Source of the DNA: Leptothrix discophora
Lineage (GTDB): Bacteria; Pseudomonadota; Gammaproteobacteria; Burkholderiales; Burkholderiaceae_C
Direction of reading: 5' to 3'
Assembly (NCBI RefSeq): GCF_030705305.1
Contig: NZ_JAUZEE010000007.1
Coordinates: forward strand, 62,001-126,000
DNA: 64,000 nt
Positions 34,123-58,301 of the stretch are shown here, in pieces. A program made the translations under genes and the position numbers. Within the stretch, counting starts at the first letter, position 1; every line of letters starts with the position of its first letter. The notes below the pieces were generated by a model. The model saw nothing but the letters and a program-made list of their open reading frames with translations, ran no database searches and was not told the DNA's origin.

Positions 34123-34129
34123 CATGAAG

Positions 34130-34308
34130 CCCCTCGACCGGCGGGTACGCCGGTCGATCCCCCAGGGGGATCCGGGCCGGCTTGGGGCGGCCCGGCGCTC
34201 GGCCCGGGAATGCGTTCGCCCCTCGCCCGGCGGGTACGCCGGTCGATCCCCCAGGGGGATGTCGGGCCGGCTTGGGGCGGCCCGGCGCTCGGCCCGGGAA
34301 CGCGTTCG
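34130..34308. repeat. Tandem duplication of an 89-bp GC-rich palindromic element
   Basis: Two head-to-tail copies start at 34130 and 34219 (89 and 90 bp). They are identical apart from a few differences near CCTCGACC/CCTCGCCC, GGATCC/GGATGTC and GGAATGC/GGAACGC. Each copy holds two hairpins, CCGGCG-GGTA-CGCCGG and ATCCCC-CAG-GGGGAT, followed by a Gly/Arg-coding-looking stretch. It lies in the intergenic space between the DUF3455 and OmpA genes. It looks like a REP/BIME-type or other dispersed intergenic repeat. No other copy was seen in the window. Confidence 0.85.
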
Positions 34309-34367
34309 CCCCTCCATGGGGCCGCCGGTCCGGCCCCTTGTCCCGTGCGGCCTTCGGCGGGCGTCGA

Positions 34368-45100: not shown

Positions 45101-48064
45101 CAGGTCGGCCGGCGTGCCCTCGGCGACCAGCAGACCGCCGGCGTCGCCGCCTTCGGGGCCGAGGTCGATCAGCCAGTCGCTGGCGCGGATGACGTCAAGG
45201 TTGTGCTCGATCACCAGCAGGCTGTGGCCGGCTTCGAGCAGCTTGCGGAAGGCCCGCATCAGCTTGGCGATGTCGTCGAAGTGCAGGCCGGTGGTCGGCT
45301 CGTCGAACAGGAACAGCGTGCCCTTGCGGGCCAGCTTCTGGCGGCTCGCGGTGCTGTTGCGCGCGGCCTCGGCCAGGAAGCCGGCGAGCTTCAGGCGCTG
45401 GGCCTCGCCGCCCGAAAGCGTCGGCACCGGCTGGCCGAGCTTGACGTAGTCCAGGCCGACGTCGGCCAGCGGCTGCAGCGCGCGCACCACCTCGCGGTCG
45501 TCGGCGAACAGGCGCACGGCGTCGGCGACGGTCAGCTCCAGCACGTCGGAGATGCTCATCTCGCGGCTGCCGCGCGCGAGCTTGACCTCGCGGATCTCCG
45601 GCCGGTAACGGGTGCCGTCGCAGTCCGGGCAGCGCAGGTAGACGTCGCTCAGGAACTGCATCTCGACGTGCTCGAAGCCCGAGCCGCCGCAGGTCGCGCA
45701 GCGGCCGTCGCCGGCGTTGAAGCTGAACAGGCCGGCGGTGTAGTTGCGCTGCTGCGCGGCCGGCAGCGCGGCGAACAGCTCGCGCACCGCGTCGAAGGCG
45801 CCGACGAAGCTGGCCGGGTTGGAGCGCGCGGTCTTGCCGATCGGGCTCTGGTCGACGAAGACCGCGTCCGACAGCCAGTCCGCGCCCAGCAGGCGGTCGT
45901 GCTCGCCGGGCGTCTCGGTGGCCTGGCCGAAGTGGCGTGCCAGCGCCGGGTAGAGCACGTCCTGGATCAGCGTGGACTTGCCCGAGCCGCTGACGCCGGT
46001 CACGCAGACCAGCCGCTGCAGCGGGAACTCGACCGTCAGGTCGCGCAGGTTGTGCTCGCGCGCGCCTTCGAGGATCAGGCACGGCGTGCTGTCGAGCACC
46101 GGCCGCGTCAGGCCCAGGCCGATGCTGCGGCGCGCGCCGAGGTAGGCGCCGGTCAGCGTCTCGGCCGACTTGAGCTGCTCGGGCGTGCCGTCGAAGACGA
46201 TGCGCCCGCCCTGCGTGCCGGGGCCGGGGCCGAGGTCGATGACGCGGTCGGCCGCCAGCATCACCGCCGGGTCGTGCTCGACCACCACCAGCGTGTTGCC
46301 GGCATCGCGCAGCCTCAGCATCGCCTGGTTGATGCGGTGCATGTCGCGCGGGTGCAGGCCGATGCTGGGCTCGTCCAGCACGAACAGCGTGTTGACCAGC
46401 GAGGTGCCCAGCGCCGTCGTCAGGTTGATGCGCTGGACCTCGCCGCCGGACAGCGTGCGGCTCTGGCGGTCCAGCGTCAGGTAGCCCAGGCCGACGTCGC
46501 ACAGGTAGCGCAGGCGGGTGCGGACCTCGTCGAGCACCAGCTGCATCGCGGCGTCGGCCGCGCCCTCGCCCGGCAGGTGCTGGGGCTCGGCGGCGACCGC
46601 GTCGGCAAAGCGGCGCAGGCGCTCGATCGGCAGGATCATCAGGTCGTGCAGGCCGAGGCCGGGCAAGCCCTCCAGCTGCTCGCGGCGCCAGGTCACGCCC
46701 TTGGGCATGAAGCGCTTTGACGGTGGCAGCACCGCGTCGGCCTGGGCCTTCGTGCCGATGCGCCAGAGCAGCGATTCGGTCTTCAGCCGCGCGCCGCCGC
46801 AGTCACCGCAGGGCGTGTAGCTGCGGTACTTGGACAGCAGCACGCGGATGTGCATCTTGTAGGCCTTGCTCTCGAGGTACTCGAAGAAGCGCCGGATGCC
46901 GTACCACTGCTGGTTCCACTTGCCGTTCCAGTTCGGCGAGCCCTCGATGACCCAGTCGCGCTGGGCCGCCGTCAGCTGGTTCCACGGCGTGTCGCGCGGC
47001 ACGCCGGCATCGCCGGCGTACTTGATCAGGTCGTCCTGGCATTCCTTCCAGGCCGGCGTCTGCAGCGGCTTGACCGCGCCGCCGCGCAGCGTCTTGCGCA
47101 CGTCGGGGACGACCAGGCCGAAGTCCACGCCGATCACCCGGCCGAAGCCGCGACAGGTCTCGCAGGCGCCGTAGGCCGAGTTGAACGAGAACATCGACGG
47201 CTGCGGCGCGCTGTAGCGGCGGTCGCTCTCCGGGCAGTGCAGGCCCGCGCTGTAGCGCCAGATCTCGAGCTCGGCCGGCGGGCTGTGGACAACTTCCGGG
47301 CCGCCCTCCCCGCCTGCCTCATGTCGCAGCACGTAGACGTTGAACCGGCCACCGCCGCGCTTGAGCGCGGCTTCGATCGCTTCGACGACACGGACCTTCT
47401 CGGCGTTGCCCATGCGCAGCCGGTCGGCCACCACGTCGAGCCGCTTGCGCGGTCCCGTCGGCGTGGCGACCTCGCGTTCGGCCTGGATGCGGGTGTAGCC
47501 GCTGGCCGAGAGCCACTGGGTGATCTCCTCGGTGGTGGTGCCGGCCGGCAGCTCGACCGGGAAGGTCAGCACCAGGCGCGGATCGCCGGCCGCCGCCGCG
47601 CGCGCCTGCAGGTCGCTCCAGATGCTCTGCGGATCGTCCTCGCGCACCGGCCGCGCGGTCTCGGCGTCGTGCAGGTGGGCGGCGCGGCCGAACAGCAGCT
47701 TCAGGTGGTCGTTCAGCTCGGTCATCGTGCCGACCGTGCTGCGGCTGGTGCGCACCGGGTTGGTCTGGTCGATCGCGATGGCCGGCGGCACGCCTTCGAC
47801 CGAATCGACCGCCGGGCGGTCCATGCGGTCGAGGAACTGGCGGGCGTAGGCCGAGAAGGTCTCGACGTAGCGCCGCTGGCCCTCGGCATAGAGCGTGTCG
47901 AACACCAGGCTGGACTTGCCCGAGCCGCTCGGGCCGGTCACCACCGTCAGCTCGCCGGTGCGGATGTCGAGGTCCAGGTTCTTGAGGTTGTGCTGTCGCG
48001 CACCCCGGATGCGGATCAGGCCGGCGCGGGAGCCGGAAGCGGGAGAGCCATTCGAACCAGGCAT
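42137..48064 (-). CDS. uvrA: Double-length excinuclease ABC subunit A
   Basis: UvrA finds DNA damage and loads UvrB. This protein has about 1975 residues, roughly twice the usual 940, and consists of two UvrA units in tandem. Four Walker A sites (GPSGSGKSS at 44-52, GVSGSGKST near 693, 1075 and 1638) and four LSGGE signatures (near 538, 885, 1488 and 1841) are intact. Zinc CxxC pairs appear in both units, but the first unit's early pair is changed ([12 protein letters not shown]). The join is near 1030-1050. The start is uncertain: ATG 48064 is preferred and ATG 48097 is possible; neither has a clear Shine-Dalgarno sequence. It would be a paralogue if a normal uvrA exists elsewhere. Confidence 0.9.
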
Positions 48065-48149
48065 GAGGAGCTGCTTGCACGAGGGGGAATCGACCATTCT
48101 AGGAAGCCGACGCCCGGCCTGCTGACGCCGTTCCGGACGCATCCAGCCC

Positions 48150-48548
48150 TGTGGGCAAGCCTGGGGACAAGCCCTGGATGACGCCTGCACAAGGCCGCTG
48201 GGTCGGTGAACAAGCCGGTGCACAAGCCTGTGGATGGAGATGCCCGGACGCGGCGCGGCGGTCCCAGCCGGTGCGAACAGCTTTGAGGACAGCCTGTGGA
48301 CAAGCTTGTGGATGTCCGGTGCAGGGATTCGACCGCCGCCGTCCCCGCCTGTGGGCAAGACTGGGGACAAGTCCTTCCCAAGTTGTGGACGACCTGTGCC
48401 CGCGCGGTGGACGACCGGTGGACAGTGGCTGGGCCTGCCGTGAAGACGGGGTCGCAGCAGTGGAAAACCGGTGGATGCCCTGTGTGCGGGGCGGGATGAG
48501 GGGTGGACAAGCGCGAAACCGACGCGTCTGTCCACAGGTGGCCTGTGG
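48150..48548. repeat. 11-12-bp phased repeats resembling DnaA boxes
   Basis: The 675-bp gap upstream of uvrA has no gene but is filled with variants of (T/G)GTGGACAAGCC. Copies start 12 bp apart at 48150, 48162, 48174; at 48205, 48217, 48229; at 48283, 48295, 48307; and at 48350, 48362. They start 11 bp apart at 48384, 48395, 48406, 48417. TGTGGACAA (48295) and TGTGGATGA (48544) match the reversed DnaA box TGTGGATAA at eight of nine bases. A 25-bp composite unit occurs at both 48150 and 48350. A palindrome CCACAGG-TGG-CCTGTGG sits at 48532-48548. The region is GC-rich, without an AT-rich block. Confidence 0.75.
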
Positions 48549-48621
48549 ATGAGCTGTGGGCTTTCCAGGCGGGACAGGAACGGGGTGCGGAGAACCGCGC
48601 ACCAGAACGGGCGCGGCACAA

Positions 48622-48647
48622 GAAAAGGGGCGACTGGCCGTCGCCCC
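48622..48647 (-). terminator. Terminator of the cytochrome c/dehydrogenase operon
   Basis: On the minus strand the stem GGGGCGAC / GTCGCCCC with a 5-nt loop is followed by TTTTCTTG. It lies about 95 bp beyond the cytochrome c stop codon. Confidence 0.72.
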
Positions 48648-48672
48648 AAGTCGACCGGGTCCGCGAGGGACG

Positions 48673-48696
48673 CCCTCCGGCACGGGCGCCGGAGGG
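48673..48696. other. Perfect nine-base-pair hairpin
   Basis: CCCTCCGGC-ACGGGC-GCCGGAGGG lies between the cytochrome c gene and its likely terminator. It has no T-run on either side, so it is probably an mRNA 3'-end structure rather than a second terminator. Confidence 0.5.
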
Positions 48697-48739
48697 AGGT
48701 CGACACACGATCAGGGTCCGTGGACGACCCTGCGACGGC

Positions 48740-49090
48740 TCATTCGGGAGGACGAACGACGTCGATCTTCAGGCTGGCATACCAGGCGGCCAGGTCGGCG
48801 ATGTCCGCGTCGCTGAGCGGCTTGGCCATCACGTTCATGACCTCGTGGCGGCGCGCGCCACTGCGGAAGGCCTTGAGCTGGGCGCTCAGGTAGATCTCCG
48901 GCTGACCGGCCAGGTGCGGTGCATCCGGCGTCTGGCCCATGCCCAGCGCACCATGGCAGGTCGCGCACAGGCCGGCTTTCTGCCGACCGGCGGCGGGATC
49001 GGCGGCGAGCGCCGATCCGCTCGCCACCGACAGCCCGGCCCACAACAGGGCCGCCGCGACCGGGCCCCAGGTTTCACGCGACATCGTCAT
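48740..49090 (-). CDS. Periplasmic class I cytochrome c
   Basis: This 116-residue protein has a signal peptide (about 1-29, ending GSALA), one haem-binding CATCH at 42-46 and candidate axial methionines at 85 and 88 (HEVMNVMAK). It matches the small cytochrome c553/c5 type: GLCATCHGALGMGQTPDAPHLAGQPEIYLSAQLKAFRSG. The ATG at 49090 with GAGGGG upstream is preferred; an ATG at 49111 would overlap the dehydrogenase stop (TGATG). Sitting just downstream of the dehydrogenase gene, it is its likely electron acceptor. Confidence 0.88.
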   Translation of the reverse strand: MTMSRETWGPVAAALLWAGLSVASGSALAADPAAGRQKAGLCATCHGALGMGQTPDAPHLAGQPEIYLSAQLKAFRSGARRHEVMNVMAKPLSDADIADLAAWYASLKIDVVRPPE

Positions 49091-52714: not shown

Positions 52715-52730
52715 TGTTTCACGTGGAACA
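52715..52730. promoter_or_regulatory. parS site 1
   Basis: TGTTTCACGTGGAACA is a match to the ParB-binding parS consensus (TGTTNCACGTGNAACA type). It is bounded by C and G, so the sequence reads as an 18-bp near-palindrome. It lies between the metallopeptidase gene and mnmG. Confidence 0.9.
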
Positions 52731-52765: not shown

Positions 52766-52794
52766 GTGACTTGTCCACAGGCCCTCCCTAAAAT
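52766..52794 (+). promoter_or_regulatory. Candidate mnmG promoter with DnaA-box-like spacer
   Basis: GTGACT (52766-52771) and TAAAAT (52789-52794) are exactly 17 bp apart, about 110 bp before the mnmG ATG. The spacer overlaps TTGTCCACA (52771-52779), which differs from the DnaA box TTATCCACA at one base. Confidence 0.5.
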
Positions 52795-52903: not shown

Positions 52904-54934
52904 ATGCTCTATCCCCAGGAATTCGACGTGATCGTGGTCGGCGGCGGCCACGCCGGCACCGAGGCGGCGCTCGCCGCCGCACGCATGGGCGCCCGCACGC
53001 TGCTGCTGACCCACAACATCGAGACGCTGGGGCAGATGAGCTGCAACCCGTCGATCGGTGGCATCGGCAAGGGCCACCTCGTCAAGGAAGTCGATGCGCT
53101 CGGCGGCGCGATGGCCGCAGCGACCGACGAGTCCGGCATCCAGTTCCGCATCCTCAATTCCAGCAAGGGCCCCGCCGTGCGTGCGACCCGCGCCCAGGCC
53201 GACCGCATCCTCTACAAGGCCGCGATCCGCCGCCGGCTGGAGAACCAGCCCAACTTGTGGCTGTTCCAGCAGGCCGTGGACGACCTGATGGTGGCGTCCA
53301 CCGGGTCGGGCGACCGGGTCGTCGGCGCCGTCACCCAGGTCGGCATCCGCTTCCGCAGCCGCACCGTCGTGCTGACGGCCGGCACCTTCCTGGACGGCAA
53401 GATCCACGTCGGCCTGAACAACTACCCGGCCGGCCGGGCCGGCGACCCGCCCGCCGTCAGCCTGTCGGGTCGGCTCAAGGCGCTGAAGCTGCCCCAGGGA
53501 CGCTTGAAGACCGGCACGCCGCCGCGCATCGACGGGCGCTCGATCGACTTCAGCCGCCTGACCGAACAGCCCGGCGACCTGGACCCGGTGCCCGTCTTCA
53601 GCTTCCTCGGCAACGCCGACCAGCACCCGCGCCAGGTGCCCTGCTGGATCACCCACACCAGCGAGCAGACCCACGCCATCCTGCGCACCGGCTTCGACCG
53701 CAGCCCGATGTTCACCGGCGTGATCGAGGGCGTCGGCCCGCGCTACTGCCCCAGCATCGAGGACAAGATCAACCGCTTCGCCGACAAGGACAGCCACCAG
53801 ATCTTCCTGGAGCCCGAAGGCCTGACGACGAACGAGTTCTACCCGAACGGCATCTCGACCTCGTTGCCCTTCGACATCCAGCTGGCCGCCGTGCGCACCC
53901 TGCCCGGCCTCGAGAACGCGCACATCCTGCGCCCCGGCTACGCGATCGAATACGACTACTTCGACCCGCGCGAGCTGGGGGCGACCTTCGAATCCAAGGC
54001 CATCGGCGGACTGTTCTTCGCCGGCCAGATCAACGGCACGACCGGCTACGAGGAAGCGGCCGCCCAGGGCCTGCATGCCGGCGCCAACGCGGCGCTGCAG
54101 GCCCGCGGCGAAGGCCCGCTGACGCTGCGCCGCGACCAGGCCTACCTCGGCGTGCTGGTCGATGACCTGATCACCAAGGGCGTGACCGAGCCTTACCGCA
54201 TGTTCACCAGCCGGGCCGAGTTCCGCCTGCAACTGCGCGAGGACAACGCCGACCTGCGCCTGACCGAGCTGGGCCGACAGATCGGCCTGGTCGACGACGC
54301 CCGCTGGGGCGCCTTCAACCGCAAGCGCGACGCGCTGGCGCGCGAGACCGAGCGGCTGAAGTCGACCTGGGTCCACCCCGGCATCCTGGAAGCGGCCCAG
54401 GCCGAGCGGCTGCTGGGCAAGGCACTGGAGCGGGAATACAACCTCGCCGACCTGCTGCGCCGACCTGGCGTCGGCTACGACGCGGTCGCCGAAGTGGCCG
54501 CCCTCGCCCGCCCGCACACCGCGCCGGACGAGCGTGTTTCACGTGAAACGCTGTCCGCCAGGCTCGGCGCGCAGCTGGCCGATGCGGTGATCGAGCAGCT
54601 GGAAATCGCCACCAAGTACGCCGGCTACATCGACAAGCAGAACGACGAGGTCCAGCGCGCCGCCCACTACGAGCACCTGCGGCTGCCGGCCGAGCTGGAC
54701 TACGCACAGGTCACCGCCCTGTCCTTCGAGGTCCGCCAGAAGCTGGCCACGCACCGGCCGGAGACGCTGGGCCAGGCCTCGCGCGTTTCCGGCATCACGC
54801 CGGCCGCGATCTCGCTGCTGCTGGTCCACCTGAAGAAGGGCAAGTACAAGGGCTTCGACAAGGTCGCGCCCACCGCCCTGTCCACCGACGCCCCCGAAGC
54901 CACGGCGGCAGAAACGGCGAGCGATGTCGGCTGA
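52904..54934 (+). CDS. mnmG: tRNA uridine-34 modification enzyme MnmG
   Basis: MnmG (GidA), with MnmE, makes the 5-carboxymethylaminomethyl modification of wobble uridine in tRNA. The FAD site is [19 protein letters not shown] at 11-29. The cysteine-bearing block [19 protein letters not shown] follows, and later [18 protein letters not shown]-like and [20 protein letters not shown] regions are standard. It has 676 residues (E. coli 629), including a tail rich in Thr/Ala. The start is ATG 52904 ([15 protein letters not shown]). A parS site lies inside the coding sequence at 54535. The 3' end overlaps rsmG by 11 bp. Confidence 0.97.
54535..54550. promoter_or_regulatory. parS site 2, inside mnmG
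   Basis: TGTTTCACGTGAAACG contains the perfect 14-bp palindrome GTTTCACGTGAAAC (54536-54549), the core of bacterial parS. It encodes VSRET in MnmG, so it is placed within the coding sequence. Confidence 0.93.
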
Positions 54935-55580
54935 CCGCGACCGCCTCCAGGCCGGCGCCGAGGTGCTGGGCACGCCCATCACCGAGACCCAGGCCGACAC
55001 CCTGCTCGCCTACCTGGCCCTGCTGCAGCGCTGGAACCAGGTCTACAACCTGACCGCCATCCGCGACCCGCAGCAGATGCTGGTCCAGCACCTGCTCGAC
55101 AGCCTGTCCGTGCTCGCTCCGCTGGACCGCCATCGCGCGGGCCTGGGCGAGCGCCCGATCCGGCTTCTGGACGTGGGCTCCGGTGGCGGCCTGCCGGGCG
55201 CGGTCATCGCCGTGCTGCAGCCGGACGTCGCCGTGACCTGCGTGGACACCGTGGGCAAGAAGGCGACCTTCATCCGCCAGGTCGGCGCGGAACTGCGCCT
55301 GCCCAACCTGCAGGCCCGCCACGCCCGCGTCGAGGAACTGCGCGAGCCGCCTTATGACGTCATCACCGCACGGGCCTTCGCGTCGCTCGCCGACCTGGTC
55401 CGGCTGACGCGCAGCCTGCTCGCCCCCGGCGCCTGCTGGATGGCGATGAAGGGCCAGCACCCGCAGGCCGAGATCGACACGCTGCCTGTCGACGTGTCGG
55501 TGTTTCACGTGGAACAGCTCCAGGTGCCGCATCTGGACGCCGAGCGCTGCCTGATCTGGATGCGTCCGGCGACTGTTTGA
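54924..55580 (+). CDS. rsmG: 16S rRNA m7G527 methyltransferase
   Basis: RsmG (GidB) forms 7-methylguanosine at position 527 of 16S rRNA. It has 218 residues. The AdoMet motif [16 protein letters not shown] is at 81-96; earlier blocks [23 protein letters not shown] and later [14 protein letters not shown] are family-like. The ATG at 54924 overlaps the mnmG end, as in many bacteria (gidAB). A third parS site lies in its 3' part at 55501. Confidence 0.96.
55501..55516. promoter_or_regulatory. parS site 3, inside rsmG
   Basis: TGTTTCACGTGGAACA is identical to parS site 1. It is inside the 3' part of rsmG, encoding VFHVEQ, 950 bp from site 2 and 860 bp before parA. Confidence 0.92.
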
Positions 55581-56375: not shown

Positions 56376-57146
56376 ATGGCCCGTATCTTCTGCATCGCCA
56401 ACCAGAAAGGCGGCGTCGGCAAGACGACCACCACCGTCAACCTCGCCGCCGGGCTGTCCCGCATCGGCCAGCGCGTGCTGGTGGTCGACCTCGACCCGCA
56501 GGGCAACGCGACCATGGGCTCGGGCGTCGACAAGCGCAGCCTGAAGGCCACCGTCTACGACGTGCTGATCGGCGGTGCCGGCGTGCGCGAGGCCCGCGTG
56601 ACCAGCGAGAAGGCCGGCTACGACGTGCTGGGCGCGAACCGCGAGCTGGCCGGCGCCGAGATCGAGCTGGTCAACCTGGAGCAGCGCGACCGCCGCCTCA
56701 AGCTCGCGCTGGCCGACGCGATCGGCGACTACGACTTCGTGCTGATCGACTGCCCGCCCTCGCTGAGCCTGCTGACGCTCAACGGCCTGAACTGCGCCCA
56801 CGGCGTGATCGTGCCGATGCAGTGCGAGTACTTCGCGCTTGAGGGCCTGTCCGACCTGGTCAACACCATCAAGCAGGTCCACGCCAACCTCAACCGCGAC
56901 CTGCAGCTGATCGGCCTGCTGCGGGTGATGTTCGATCCGCGCATCACGCTGCAGCAGCAGGTCAGCGAGCAGCTCAAGGCGCACTTCGGCGACAAGGTCT
57001 TCAACAGCATGATCCCGCGCAACGTGCGCCTGGCCGAAGCGCCCAGCTATGGCCTGCCAGGCGTCGTGTTCGACCCGGCCTCGCGCGGCGCGCAGGCCTT
57101 CGTCGAGTTCGCGCAGGAGATGGTCGAGCGCGTCAAGACGCTCTGA
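56376..57146 (+). CDS. parA: Chromosome partitioning ATPase ParA
   Basis: ParA/Soj pulls ParB-parS complexes apart at chromosome segregation. It has 256 residues: the deviant Walker A KGGVGKTTT at 11-19, the Walker A' region DLDPQGNATMG and Walker B VLIDCPPSLSLLTLNGL are intact. There is no HTH N-terminal extension, so it is the short chromosomal (type Ib-like) form. It lies 61 bp after the exporter gene, and three parS sites lie within 4 kb upstream. No parB follows: the next gene is on the opposite strand. Confidence 0.96.
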   Translation: MARIFCIANQKGGVGKTTTTVNLAAGLSRIGQRVLVVDLDPQGNATMGSGVDKRSLKATVYDVLIGGAGVREARVTSEKAGYDVLGANRELAGAEIELVNLEQRDRRLKLALADAIGDYDFVLIDCPPSLSLLTLNGLNCAHGVIVPMQCEYFALEGLSDLVNTIKQVHANLNRDLQLIGLLRVMFDPRITLQQQVSEQLKAHFGDKVFNSMIPRNVRLAEAPSYGLPGVVFDPASRGAQAFVEFAQEMVERVKTL

Positions 57147-57152
57147 CCCTCC

Positions 57153-58229
57153 TCAGGCCGGCAGTCCGAAGCGCCAGACGCCGTCCGCATCGCGGCTGCG
57201 GACCAGCCGGCCGGACAGCCACAGCAGGTGCAGGTGGGCGACCGACTCGCCCATCGCGAAGGTGGTCTGGTGCAGGTCCAGCGCCCGCTTGAACAGCACC
57301 GGCAGCACGTCGGCCGCGCTCTGCGGCGCGGCGGCGCAGGCCTCCAGCACCTCGGCCAGGCGTTCCGCATGGTGGCCATGCAGCTGGTCGATGCGTGCAT
57401 GCAGGCCGCGGAAGGGCTTGCCGTGCGAGGGCAGCACCAGCGTGTCGGCCGGCAGCACGCGCAGCCGGTCCAGCGAGGCGAGGTAGAGCGACAGCGGATC
57501 GGCCTCGGGCTCCAGGTCGATCACGCTGACGTTGGTCGAGATGCGCGGCAGCACCATGTCGCCGGAAATCATCAGGCCGAGGCCGGGCGCATGCAGGCTG
57601 ATGTGCTCGGGCGAATGGCCATGGCCGGCGAGGCAGCGCCAGGCCTGGCCGCCGATCTCGATCACCTGCCCATCCATCAGGCGGCGGAACTGGGTCGGCA
57701 CCTTGGGCACCATCGAGCCGTAGTAGTTGCCCCGCGCGCGGACCTTGGCCTGGCGGTCCGGATCGGTCAGCCCGTGGGCCGCGAAGAAGCGCGCCGCCGC
57801 CTCGCCGCCGTAGCCGGTGGTCTGCTGGCTGGCCATGCGGCCGGCGTTCCAGTCGGTGCCGCTGATCCAGAGGCGGCAGTCGTGCTCGGGCGTGGACCAG
57901 CGCTCGCACAGCCAGTGCGCCAGCCCGATATGGTCCGGGTGCATGTGGGTGACGATCACGCGCAGCACCGGCAGGCCGTCCATCTGCTCGGCGAAGACCT
58001 GTTCCCAGGCCCGCTGGGTCGGGTCGTTGGTGATGCCGCAGTCGACCACCGTCCAGCCCTCGCGGCCGTCGATCCGGTCGCGCAGCAGCCACAGGTTGAT
58101 GTGGTCCAGCGCGAAGGGCAGGCCCATGCGGATCCAGCGCACGCCGGGTGCCAGCGTGATGGCCTGGCCCGGTTCGGGGACGCTGTCGCCGAGGACGTAG
58201 TCGAGCTGGTGTTCAAGCGGATTGGCCAT
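57153..58229 (-). CDS. MBL-fold hydrolase
   Basis: This metallo-beta-lactamase-fold enzyme has 358 residues. The metal motif THMHPDH is at 94-100, and further ligands are seen in LAGHGHSPEHIS and ISGDMVLPRIS. A C-terminal winged-helix-like tail (about 280-358) is present, as in the LACTB2-like group. It shares its promoter region with the divergent MerR gene and a palindrome typical of LiuR. The substrate may be a thioester or a phosphodiester; this cannot be decided from the sequence. Confidence 0.87.
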   Translation of the reverse strand: MANPLEHQLDYVLGDSVPEPGQAITLAPGVRWIRMGLPFALDHINLWLLRDRIDGREGWTVVDCGITNDPTQRAWEQVFAEQMDGLPVLRVIVTHMHPDHIGLAHWLCERWSTPEHDCRLWISGTDWNAGRMASQQTTGYGGEAAARFFAAHGLTDPDRQAKVRARGNYYGSMVPKVPTQFRRLMDGQVIEIGGQAWRCLAGHGHSPEHISLHAPGLGLMISGDMVLPRISTNVSVIDLEPEADPLSLYLASLDRLRVLPADTLVLPSHGKPFRGLHARIDQLHGHHAERLAEVLEACAAAPQSAADVLPVLFKRALDLHQTTFAMGESVAHLHLLWLSGRLVRSRDADGVWRFGLPA

Positions 58230-58285
58230 CGGGACTCCATCGGTCGGATGCGGCCGACCGGCCGGATCGCGGGGTTAGACTTGCA

Positions 58286-58301
58286 TTGACGTTTACGTCA
58301 A
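58286..58301. promoter_or_regulatory. Candidate LiuR (MerR) operator
   Basis: TTGACG-TTTA-CGTCAA is an inverted repeat with perfect six-base arms in the 129-bp divergent gap. It fits the consensus I know for LiuR regulators of branched-chain amino acid and isovalerate degradation in proteobacteria. Confidence 0.65.

Follow-up and report, generated by a model that had tools for sequence, protein, structure and literature searches.

Upstream of uvrA in Leptothrix discophora lies a non-coding array of DnaA-box-like units, 16 pointing the same way and one reversed (table 1), which, by its sequence, is a member of the DnaA-box clusters. The reading that we favour, and hold to be somewhat probable, is that the array acts as an oriC-proximal, one-way DnaA-binding site, at which DnaA would be titrated and/or inactivated and early re-initiation thereby prevented. 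A titrating role of this type had been offered in the original prediction, made from the window (i.e. the whole 64,000-nucleotide stretch of DNA that was analysed); a predicted oriC on the same contig, and box clusters upstream of mnmG in seven of ten same-genus genomes, now speak for it. In the following, genomes are given by handle, G000 being that of the host and G007 that of its closest relative.

Table 1. Coordinates of the array, its parts and neighbouring features (positions of the window unless a contig is named).
Feature	Position	Strand	Remarks
Array, 16 same-direction DnaA-box-like units, consensus CTGTGGACAAGC, plus 1 reverse box	48147..48566	+	9-mer scan
Composite box pair, copy 1: boxes 48150 and 48162, 12-bp pitch	48148..48175	+	counterpart pair kept in G007
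Three weak boxes 48205, 48217, 48229, 12-bp pitch	48205..48237	+	
Three boxes 48284, 48295 (perfect TGTGGACAA), 48307, 11-12 bp pitch	48284..48315	+	
Composite box pair, copy 2: boxes 48350 and 48362	48348..48375	+	
Boxes 48384, 48406, 48417, steps 22 and 11 bp	48384..48425	+	
Boxes 48459, 48502, 48544 (steps 43 and 42 bp) plus reverse box 48528	48459..48552	+	
uvrA, long form, 1975 aa	42140..48064	-	start codon 48064, 86 bp from first box; neighbour by synteny, not function, in the preferred reading
parS-like site TGTTTCACGTGGAACA	52715..52730	.	upstream of mnmG
Perfect DnaA box	52771..52779	-	125 bp upstream of mnmG
mnmG (gidA)	52904..54931	+	start 4.3 kb from array
Second parS-like site, identical TGTTTCACGTGGAACA	55501..55516	.	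upstream of parA
parA-like ATPase	56376..57143	+	start 7.8 kb from array
G000 copies of the box pair + IHF module	C27:320786 (L170), C11:273341 (L157)		

Composition and spacing of the array

Within two mismatches of TGTGGATAA or TGTGGACAA, the array holds 17 boxes, whose outer limits are 48150-48552, in 420 bp of non-coding DNA; nine of them (eight forward and one reverse) lie within a single mismatch, and the sole perfect one is the TGTGGACAA box. The original prediction of about fifteen copies is thus borne out, the number being far above that found in shuffled sequence. Indeed, the whole uvrA-side gap (48065-48739) contains 19 boxes at up to two mismatches and nine at up to one, to be compared with means of 2.0 (maximum 6) and 0.18 (maximum 2), respectively, in 300 dinucleotide shuffles. 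The densest 400 bp of the window hold 16 boxes, and the best non-overlapping stretch listed besides holds five. Across 1.23 Mb of G000 and G009, at least five boxes within one mismatch per 420 bp are found in only two stretches, namely the array and the origin locus of G009; the reversed motif, at the same threshold and in the same 1.23 Mb, gives none.

Successive forward boxes follow one another at steps of 12, 43, 12, 12, 55, 11, 12, 43, 12, 22, 22, 11, 42, 43 and 42 bp; of these 15 gaps, seven are of 11-12 bp, two of 22 bp, five of 42-43 bp and one of 55 bp. The 11-12 bp pitch inside the blocks, about one helical turn, is certainly real, and to this extent the helical phasing proposed earlier stands. 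Over the entire array, the 18 forward boxes of 48065-48739 give a best period of 11.2 bp (R 0.69), which 0.4% of random layouts match, but when only the long gaps are jittered, the short ones being retained, 8% of controls reach the same score, so that array-wide phasing is not significant once the short gaps are controlled for, and is only suggestive. The repetition of a composite unit, also part of the prediction, was recovered, the unit being 28 bp long and its two copies, 200 bp apart, 93% identical.

That the units are DnaA boxes of a kind used in this genus is supported by several observations. Beside dnaA, two perfect boxes stand in inverted orientation some 60 bp from each other, and at the variable base they read T/T in G000 and G007, C/T in G012 and T/C in G008 (a C/T pair of equal spacing in G002 is probably the same dnaA-side site); therefore, both the TGTGGACAA and the TGTGGATAA forms are in use in the genus. 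By its sequence context, TGTGGACAA is a true box form, replacing TGTGGATAA beside dnaA in relatives and supplying the core box of the predicted origin, where it is read as TTGTCCACA. The DnaA protein retains its domain IV motif, GGRDHTTV. Perfect boxes number 13 in the G000 genome, versus eight for the reversed motif; across 13 genomes of the genus the counts run from 10 to 70 and exceed those of the reversed motif (3 to 19) in every one. Each of the 13 genomes also has pairs of boxes at a 12-bp pitch, defined by TGTGGAYAASNNTGTGGRYAAG with two mismatches. There are 89 such pairs altogether, and none of the reversed pattern; this tighter pattern was adopted because a three-mismatch version was swamped by coding-like matches and, overall, did not exceed its reversed control (it did in 3 of 13 genomes).

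An IHF site, searched for as WATCAANNNNTTR with no or one mismatch, is absent from 48065-48740, and no structured RNA was matched in the window by Rfam at gathering thresholds. Downstream of the array, two identical parS-like sites (so named from the parS consensus) flank mnmG, upstream of parA, and the distances of about 4 kb to mnmG and 8 kb to parA given in the prediction hold. The perfect box just upstream of mnmG is also present in G007 and G009. The interval 57228-58286 has no Pfam match, and parB is not claimed. As for the rest of the window, uvrA is roughly double the normal size, both of its halves matching the UvrA family, a separate UvrA-like gene (open frame of 1053 aa) being found on contig C3 of G000; a tandem repeat of period 90 (2.1 copies, 95% matches) lies at 34129-34314.

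The predicted origin and GC skew

In G000, dnaA lies on another contig (C27), and the rpmH-dnaA gap contains two perfect inverted boxes, with neither a box cluster nor a DnaA-trio. The dnaA locus was discarded as the origin on these grounds, and also because the GC skew of G008 stays negative across dnaA. DnaA-trios are treated as origin elements in PMC5295017. The predicted oriC is, instead, on the contig of the window, at about 179.5-179.8 kb of C29 (179450-179800), between a fadD-like gene (AMP-binding acyl-CoA synthetase) and a pat-like gene (CoA-ligase/GNAT; both by Pfam). It comprises a small box cluster (three within one mismatch), an IHF-consensus core and the core box, followed by a 14-bp GC-rich spacer, then by CTATTACTACGACTAC, which reads as TAG-type trios on the opposite strand, and an AT-rich stretch.

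A search for the box-plus-trio core over 2.5 Mb of fetched, partly redundant sequence returned the fadD/pat locus, and only this locus, in G000, G007, G009, G002 and G011; G009 carries two copies, 346 bp apart. The same layout with a weaker core box was read by eye near the fadD-like gene in G001, G005 and G008, and these cores give weaker support, since a loose automatic scan missed them and the other five were found by the box-plus-trio search. No core of this type was found in the sequence fetched for G010, G012 or the others. In six aligned core copies the box is invariant, as are most trio columns. In the more distant G030, two box-plus-trio cores (CTACTACTACTA) about 390 bp apart, at about 5138.2 and 5138.6 kb of L364 and 11 kb from mnmG, are a probable origin near mnmG.

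The GC skew was sampled in G008, which is in three contigs, by taking 26 windows, each of 20 kb, from the region 1.02-2.22 Mb of a 4.83-Mb contig. It is negative in 5/5 windows left of dnaA (1.327 Mb; mean -0.030) and in 11/12 from dnaA to 1.79 Mb (mean -0.011 +/- 0.0025), the exception (+0.006) being the window that contains the predicted origin (1.7857 Mb), and positive in 8/9 beyond 1.79 Mb (mean +0.022 +/- 0.005). Thus, the skew of G008 changes sign at the predicted origin locus and not at dnaA, which supports that locus. The skew plot proposed earlier as a check was, however, informative in G008 only: in G000 there is no flip at the predicted oriC and the skew is too weak to decide, and in G009 the sign change is nearer to dnaA than to the predicted oriC. 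A dense group of perfect DnaA boxes was observed in G008 at C1:1811644-1814143, 26-28 kb from its predicted origin.

The array, at C29:110,147-110,566, lies therefore outside the origin, about 69 kb from a predicted oriC that the G008 skew supports and on which that of G000 is undecided; the corresponding distances are 67 kb in G007, 52 kb in G009 and 75 kb in G005. An origin-related neighbourhood, as first suggested, is supported by these data. That the array is itself a main or secondary replication origin is, on the other hand, very improbable: DnaA boxes near mnmG, parA and two parS-like sites would suit an origin, but the array (GC 0.667) has no AT-rich stretch, its lowest 40-bp GC being 0.50 versus 0.35 at the predicted oriC, the pattern of box, GC spacer and DnaA-trio is absent from the window and present at the locus 69 kb away, and no sustained skew flip occurs at the array.

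Recurrence of box clusters beside mnmG

Conservation was first sought upstream of uvrA. Among 39 relatives searched, 26 with a long-uvrA locus were examined (only 629 bp upstream in G028). Within 1.5 kb upstream of the orthologous gene, G007 has seven boxes and G009 four at up to one mismatch, and 24 of the 26 have at most one; at up to two mismatches, G014, G018 and G032 reach 9-12 boxes per 1.5 kb, versus 20 in G000. This anchor, which had suggested conservation in the closest relatives only, proved misleading and was abandoned, as the clusters follow mnmG. In G005 and G010, clusters of ten and nine boxes, respectively, with six perfect boxes each, lie about 4 kb upstream of mnmG, uvrA being on other contigs. 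A cluster (at least three boxes within one mismatch) is found up to 8 kb upstream of mnmG in seven of the ten assessable same-genus genomes, the host's own included (G000, G007, G009, G005, G010, G001 and G008), and is absent within that distance from G002, G011 and G012; in G011 and G012, the sole group is one of two boxes, situated between mnmG and parA. Outside this count are G003 and G006 (contig edges) and G004 (no mnmG match). Beyond the genus, no mnmG cluster was found in any of ten genomes (G013, G014, G015, G016, G019, G021, G022, G023, G027 and G030). The background is two clusters in 980 kb of other sequence, i.e. 0.016 per 8 kb, and one of the two is the priA module described below.

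The position beside mnmG is less telling in G001, G005 and G010, because their whole origin zone is cluster-rich; these three look closely related, and their zones were fetched for holding 12-bp box pairs. In the sparse zones of G000, G007 and G009, the location of the cluster near mnmG is specific. The forward:reverse ratios at up to two mismatches are 16:1 in G000, 12:2 in G007, 4:1 in G009, 12:3 in G005, 13:3 in G010 and a mixed 8:6 in G001, the G008 cluster consisting of three boxes.

DnaA-dependent control of uvrA, by repression or activation through the array, is accordingly a rather improbable reading. The closeness of the first box to the uvrA start codon (86 bp) would agree with it, as would the position of the equivalent G005 cluster, which adjoins the gene of another repair protein, O6-methylguanine-DNA methyltransferase. 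It is opposed by the scarcity of boxes upstream of uvrA in 24/26 relatives and by clusters that track mnmG rather than uvrA; a simple consensus scan, which is weak evidence, found no sigma-70-like promoter in 47950-48850. The link to the SOS response that had also been proposed fares no better, as 47901-48800 contains no CTGT-N8-ACAG site, the LexA consensus of E. coli.

Another explanation, which we regard as unlikely although less so than control of uvrA, is that the array is the decaying, now functionless remnant of an older DnaA/IHF element near mnmG, as found in G005 and G010, eroded by GC-biased mutation. Only 1 of its 17 boxes (up to two mismatches, both strands) is perfect, versus 6/15 in G005 and 6/16 in G010; the IHF site is missing; 17 of the 23 mismatches in its 16 forward boxes, counted by hand, are changes of A or T to G; and the intergenic sequence of G000 aligns poorly with that of G007, in which the flanks align well. 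However, plain decay should cut the number of boxes and scramble their spacing, and for this reason the remnant is disfavoured: 16 forward boxes in G000 and 12 in G007 are kept amid poorly aligned DNA, with gaps of 11-13 bp in 7/15 and 3/11 cases, respectively, and the composite pair of G000 is repeated almost unchanged at a distance of 200 bp.

In several of these genomes, perfect boxes are concentrated in the origin zone. The fetched origin zones contain 31 of the 51 perfect boxes of G005 in 2.3% of its genome, 28/49 in 1.7% for G010, 25/40 in 1.2% for G001 and 36/70 in 2.6% for G008. As the zones were chosen by box-pair matches, we do not offer the nominal P values as tests, but such a choice by itself could hardly bring half of the boxes into 2% of a genome. 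For G009, 8/16 perfect boxes fall in 400 kb taken so as to cover dnaA and the uvrA array (8.1% of the genome), and 1/16 in an evenly spaced 400-kb sample; in G000, 4/13 lie on contig 29 (5.5% of the genome) and 3/13 on the dnaA-containing portion of contig 27 (3.9%). Pairs of boxes no more than 70 bp from each other were also counted in the zones of the other species: a spacing of 11-12 bp is seen in 30/83 same-strand pairs and in 2/28 opposite-strand pairs, the reversed motif giving one same-strand pair; the peak at 12 bp is partly built in, because the zones were picked with a 12-bp pattern, and in 1.23 Mb not so picked 4 of 11 same-strand pairs, the array included, are at 12 bp. A further DnaA-box-like cluster, of mixed directions, was observed in G000 at C26:65331-65647 (L002), in the gap upstream of a putative ureD-like gene; G007 C5:243173-243488 is its likely counterpart.

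Relation to the box pair with IHF site and to known systems

The 22-bp box pair, searched for as an exact pattern, occurs in at least 118 stretches of named genomes. Of 119 matches listed, 56 are at xseA/exbB, 28 at priA/hemE, two at mnmG and 33 elsewhere or unassigned (genes by Pfam), and among these listed matches an IHF core (ATCAANNNNTTR) is met no more than 200 bp further on in 37/56 at xseA, 23/28 at priA, 0/2 at mnmG and 12/33 of the others (expected 0.016), at an offset of 105-109 bp (median 108) at priA and 53-108 bp (median 106) at xseA. A scan of 2.9 Mb of fetched, partly redundant sequence, which admitted any offset from 80 to 140 bp and any pitch from 11 to 13 bp, gave 23 rows that we count as 15 distinct places, six at xseA, seven at priA and two at mnmG, all with a pitch of 12 and an offset of 106-109 except for the priA place of G009, where the offset is 118. 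Because many loci were fetched with the 12-bp pattern, the pitch is in part a product of that choice; the offset is not. At mnmG, the places found are the G005 and G010 clusters, with the IHF site 108 bp on. The module, which among the matches listed adjoins priA/hemE and xseA/exbB in many genomes of Burkholderiales and in some related ones, looks like a candidate element of the datA/DARS type; a partial literature search found no description of such elements for Betaproteobacteria. The array has 12-bp pairs and lacks the IHF site; with the mnmG member of G005 and G010 it has place and direction in common.

As to known systems, the account of E. coli datA in PMC5742627 has the essential boxes in one direction, suggesting head-to-tail ATP-DnaA. 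Like datA, the array is a non-coding cluster of same-direction boxes (16/17 one way) outside oriC; unlike the minimal datA, whose 183 bp include an IHF site and three boxes, two of high and one of low affinity, it has 16 forward boxes, most of them weak, spread over 400 bp, and no IHF site. Since datA needs IHF, the array does not belong to datA; its geometry is datA-like, and it may still function in a similar way. The absence of an IHF site also separates it from E. coli DARS1 and DARS2, which resemble it as non-coding DnaA boxes and of which DARS2 is acted upon by IHF and Fis, according to PMC5295017. The same paper describes DnaA-box clusters outside the origin of Bacillus subtilis, the joint removal of which leads to early initiation; the array is similar in being a cluster outside the origin, in a bacterium of another phylum. 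It further resembles the low-affinity box arrays of the halves of E. coli oriC, with weak boxes of one direction per half that bind ATP-DnaA head to tail (PMC5742627), but has no unwinding element. Finally, the enrichment of DnaA boxes around E. coli oriC, which covers roughly centisomes 98 to 5 in a genome with boxes in the hundreds, is read as titration in PMC12371093; G005, G010, G001 and G008 have 40-70 perfect boxes, half or more in 1-3% of the genome, though the two measures differ.

On the favoured reading, titration or inactivation at an oriC-proximal site, DnaA would first bind the single perfect box and then fill the weak neighbouring boxes head to tail, probably in its ATP form, nearly all of these having the same direction and many being one helical turn apart. 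Because it is about 69 kb from oriC, the array would be copied soon after initiation, and its two copies would sequester free DnaA and might also favour hydrolysis of the bound ATP, oriC being thereby kept from firing again at once. Early duplication, many DnaA sites and no unwinding element are the reasons why titration or inactivation would fit the array. Several observations tell against this reading: a single box of the 17 is perfect; the IHF site of datA and of the G005 and G010 equivalents is missing; G002, G011, G012 and the ten genomes beyond the genus have no mnmG cluster; the origin zones of G005, G010 and G001 are cluster-rich throughout; the skew of G000 and G009 does not change at the predicted oriC; perfect boxes are also present in the dnaA portion of contig 27; and the arrays of G000 and G005 correspond by position and not by alignment. 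More tentatively, and as a possibility to which we give less credence, the array may be part of an undescribed DnaA-control system of Burkholderiales, in which the 12-bp box pair with an IHF site 106-109 bp on would be fixed at priA and xseA, with a third member in the origin zone near mnmG, and, together with the box-dense zone, would set the timing of initiation; the array of the window would then be a derived, IHF-free, one-way oligomerization track that has replaced the third member.

The origin of this genus is here predicted to lie away from dnaA; for another member of the Burkholderiales, Burkholderia cenocepacia, the exact origin of the main chromosome is called uncertain in PMC4948915. 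How proteobacteria other than E. coli time their replication, by titration or by nucleotide switching, is the open question that these observations address. With its predicted origin, its box-dense zone and discrete box elements, among them a box/IHF module found, among the matches listed, in many Burkholderiales, the genus offers a setting in which such elements can be read from the sequence and removed singly.
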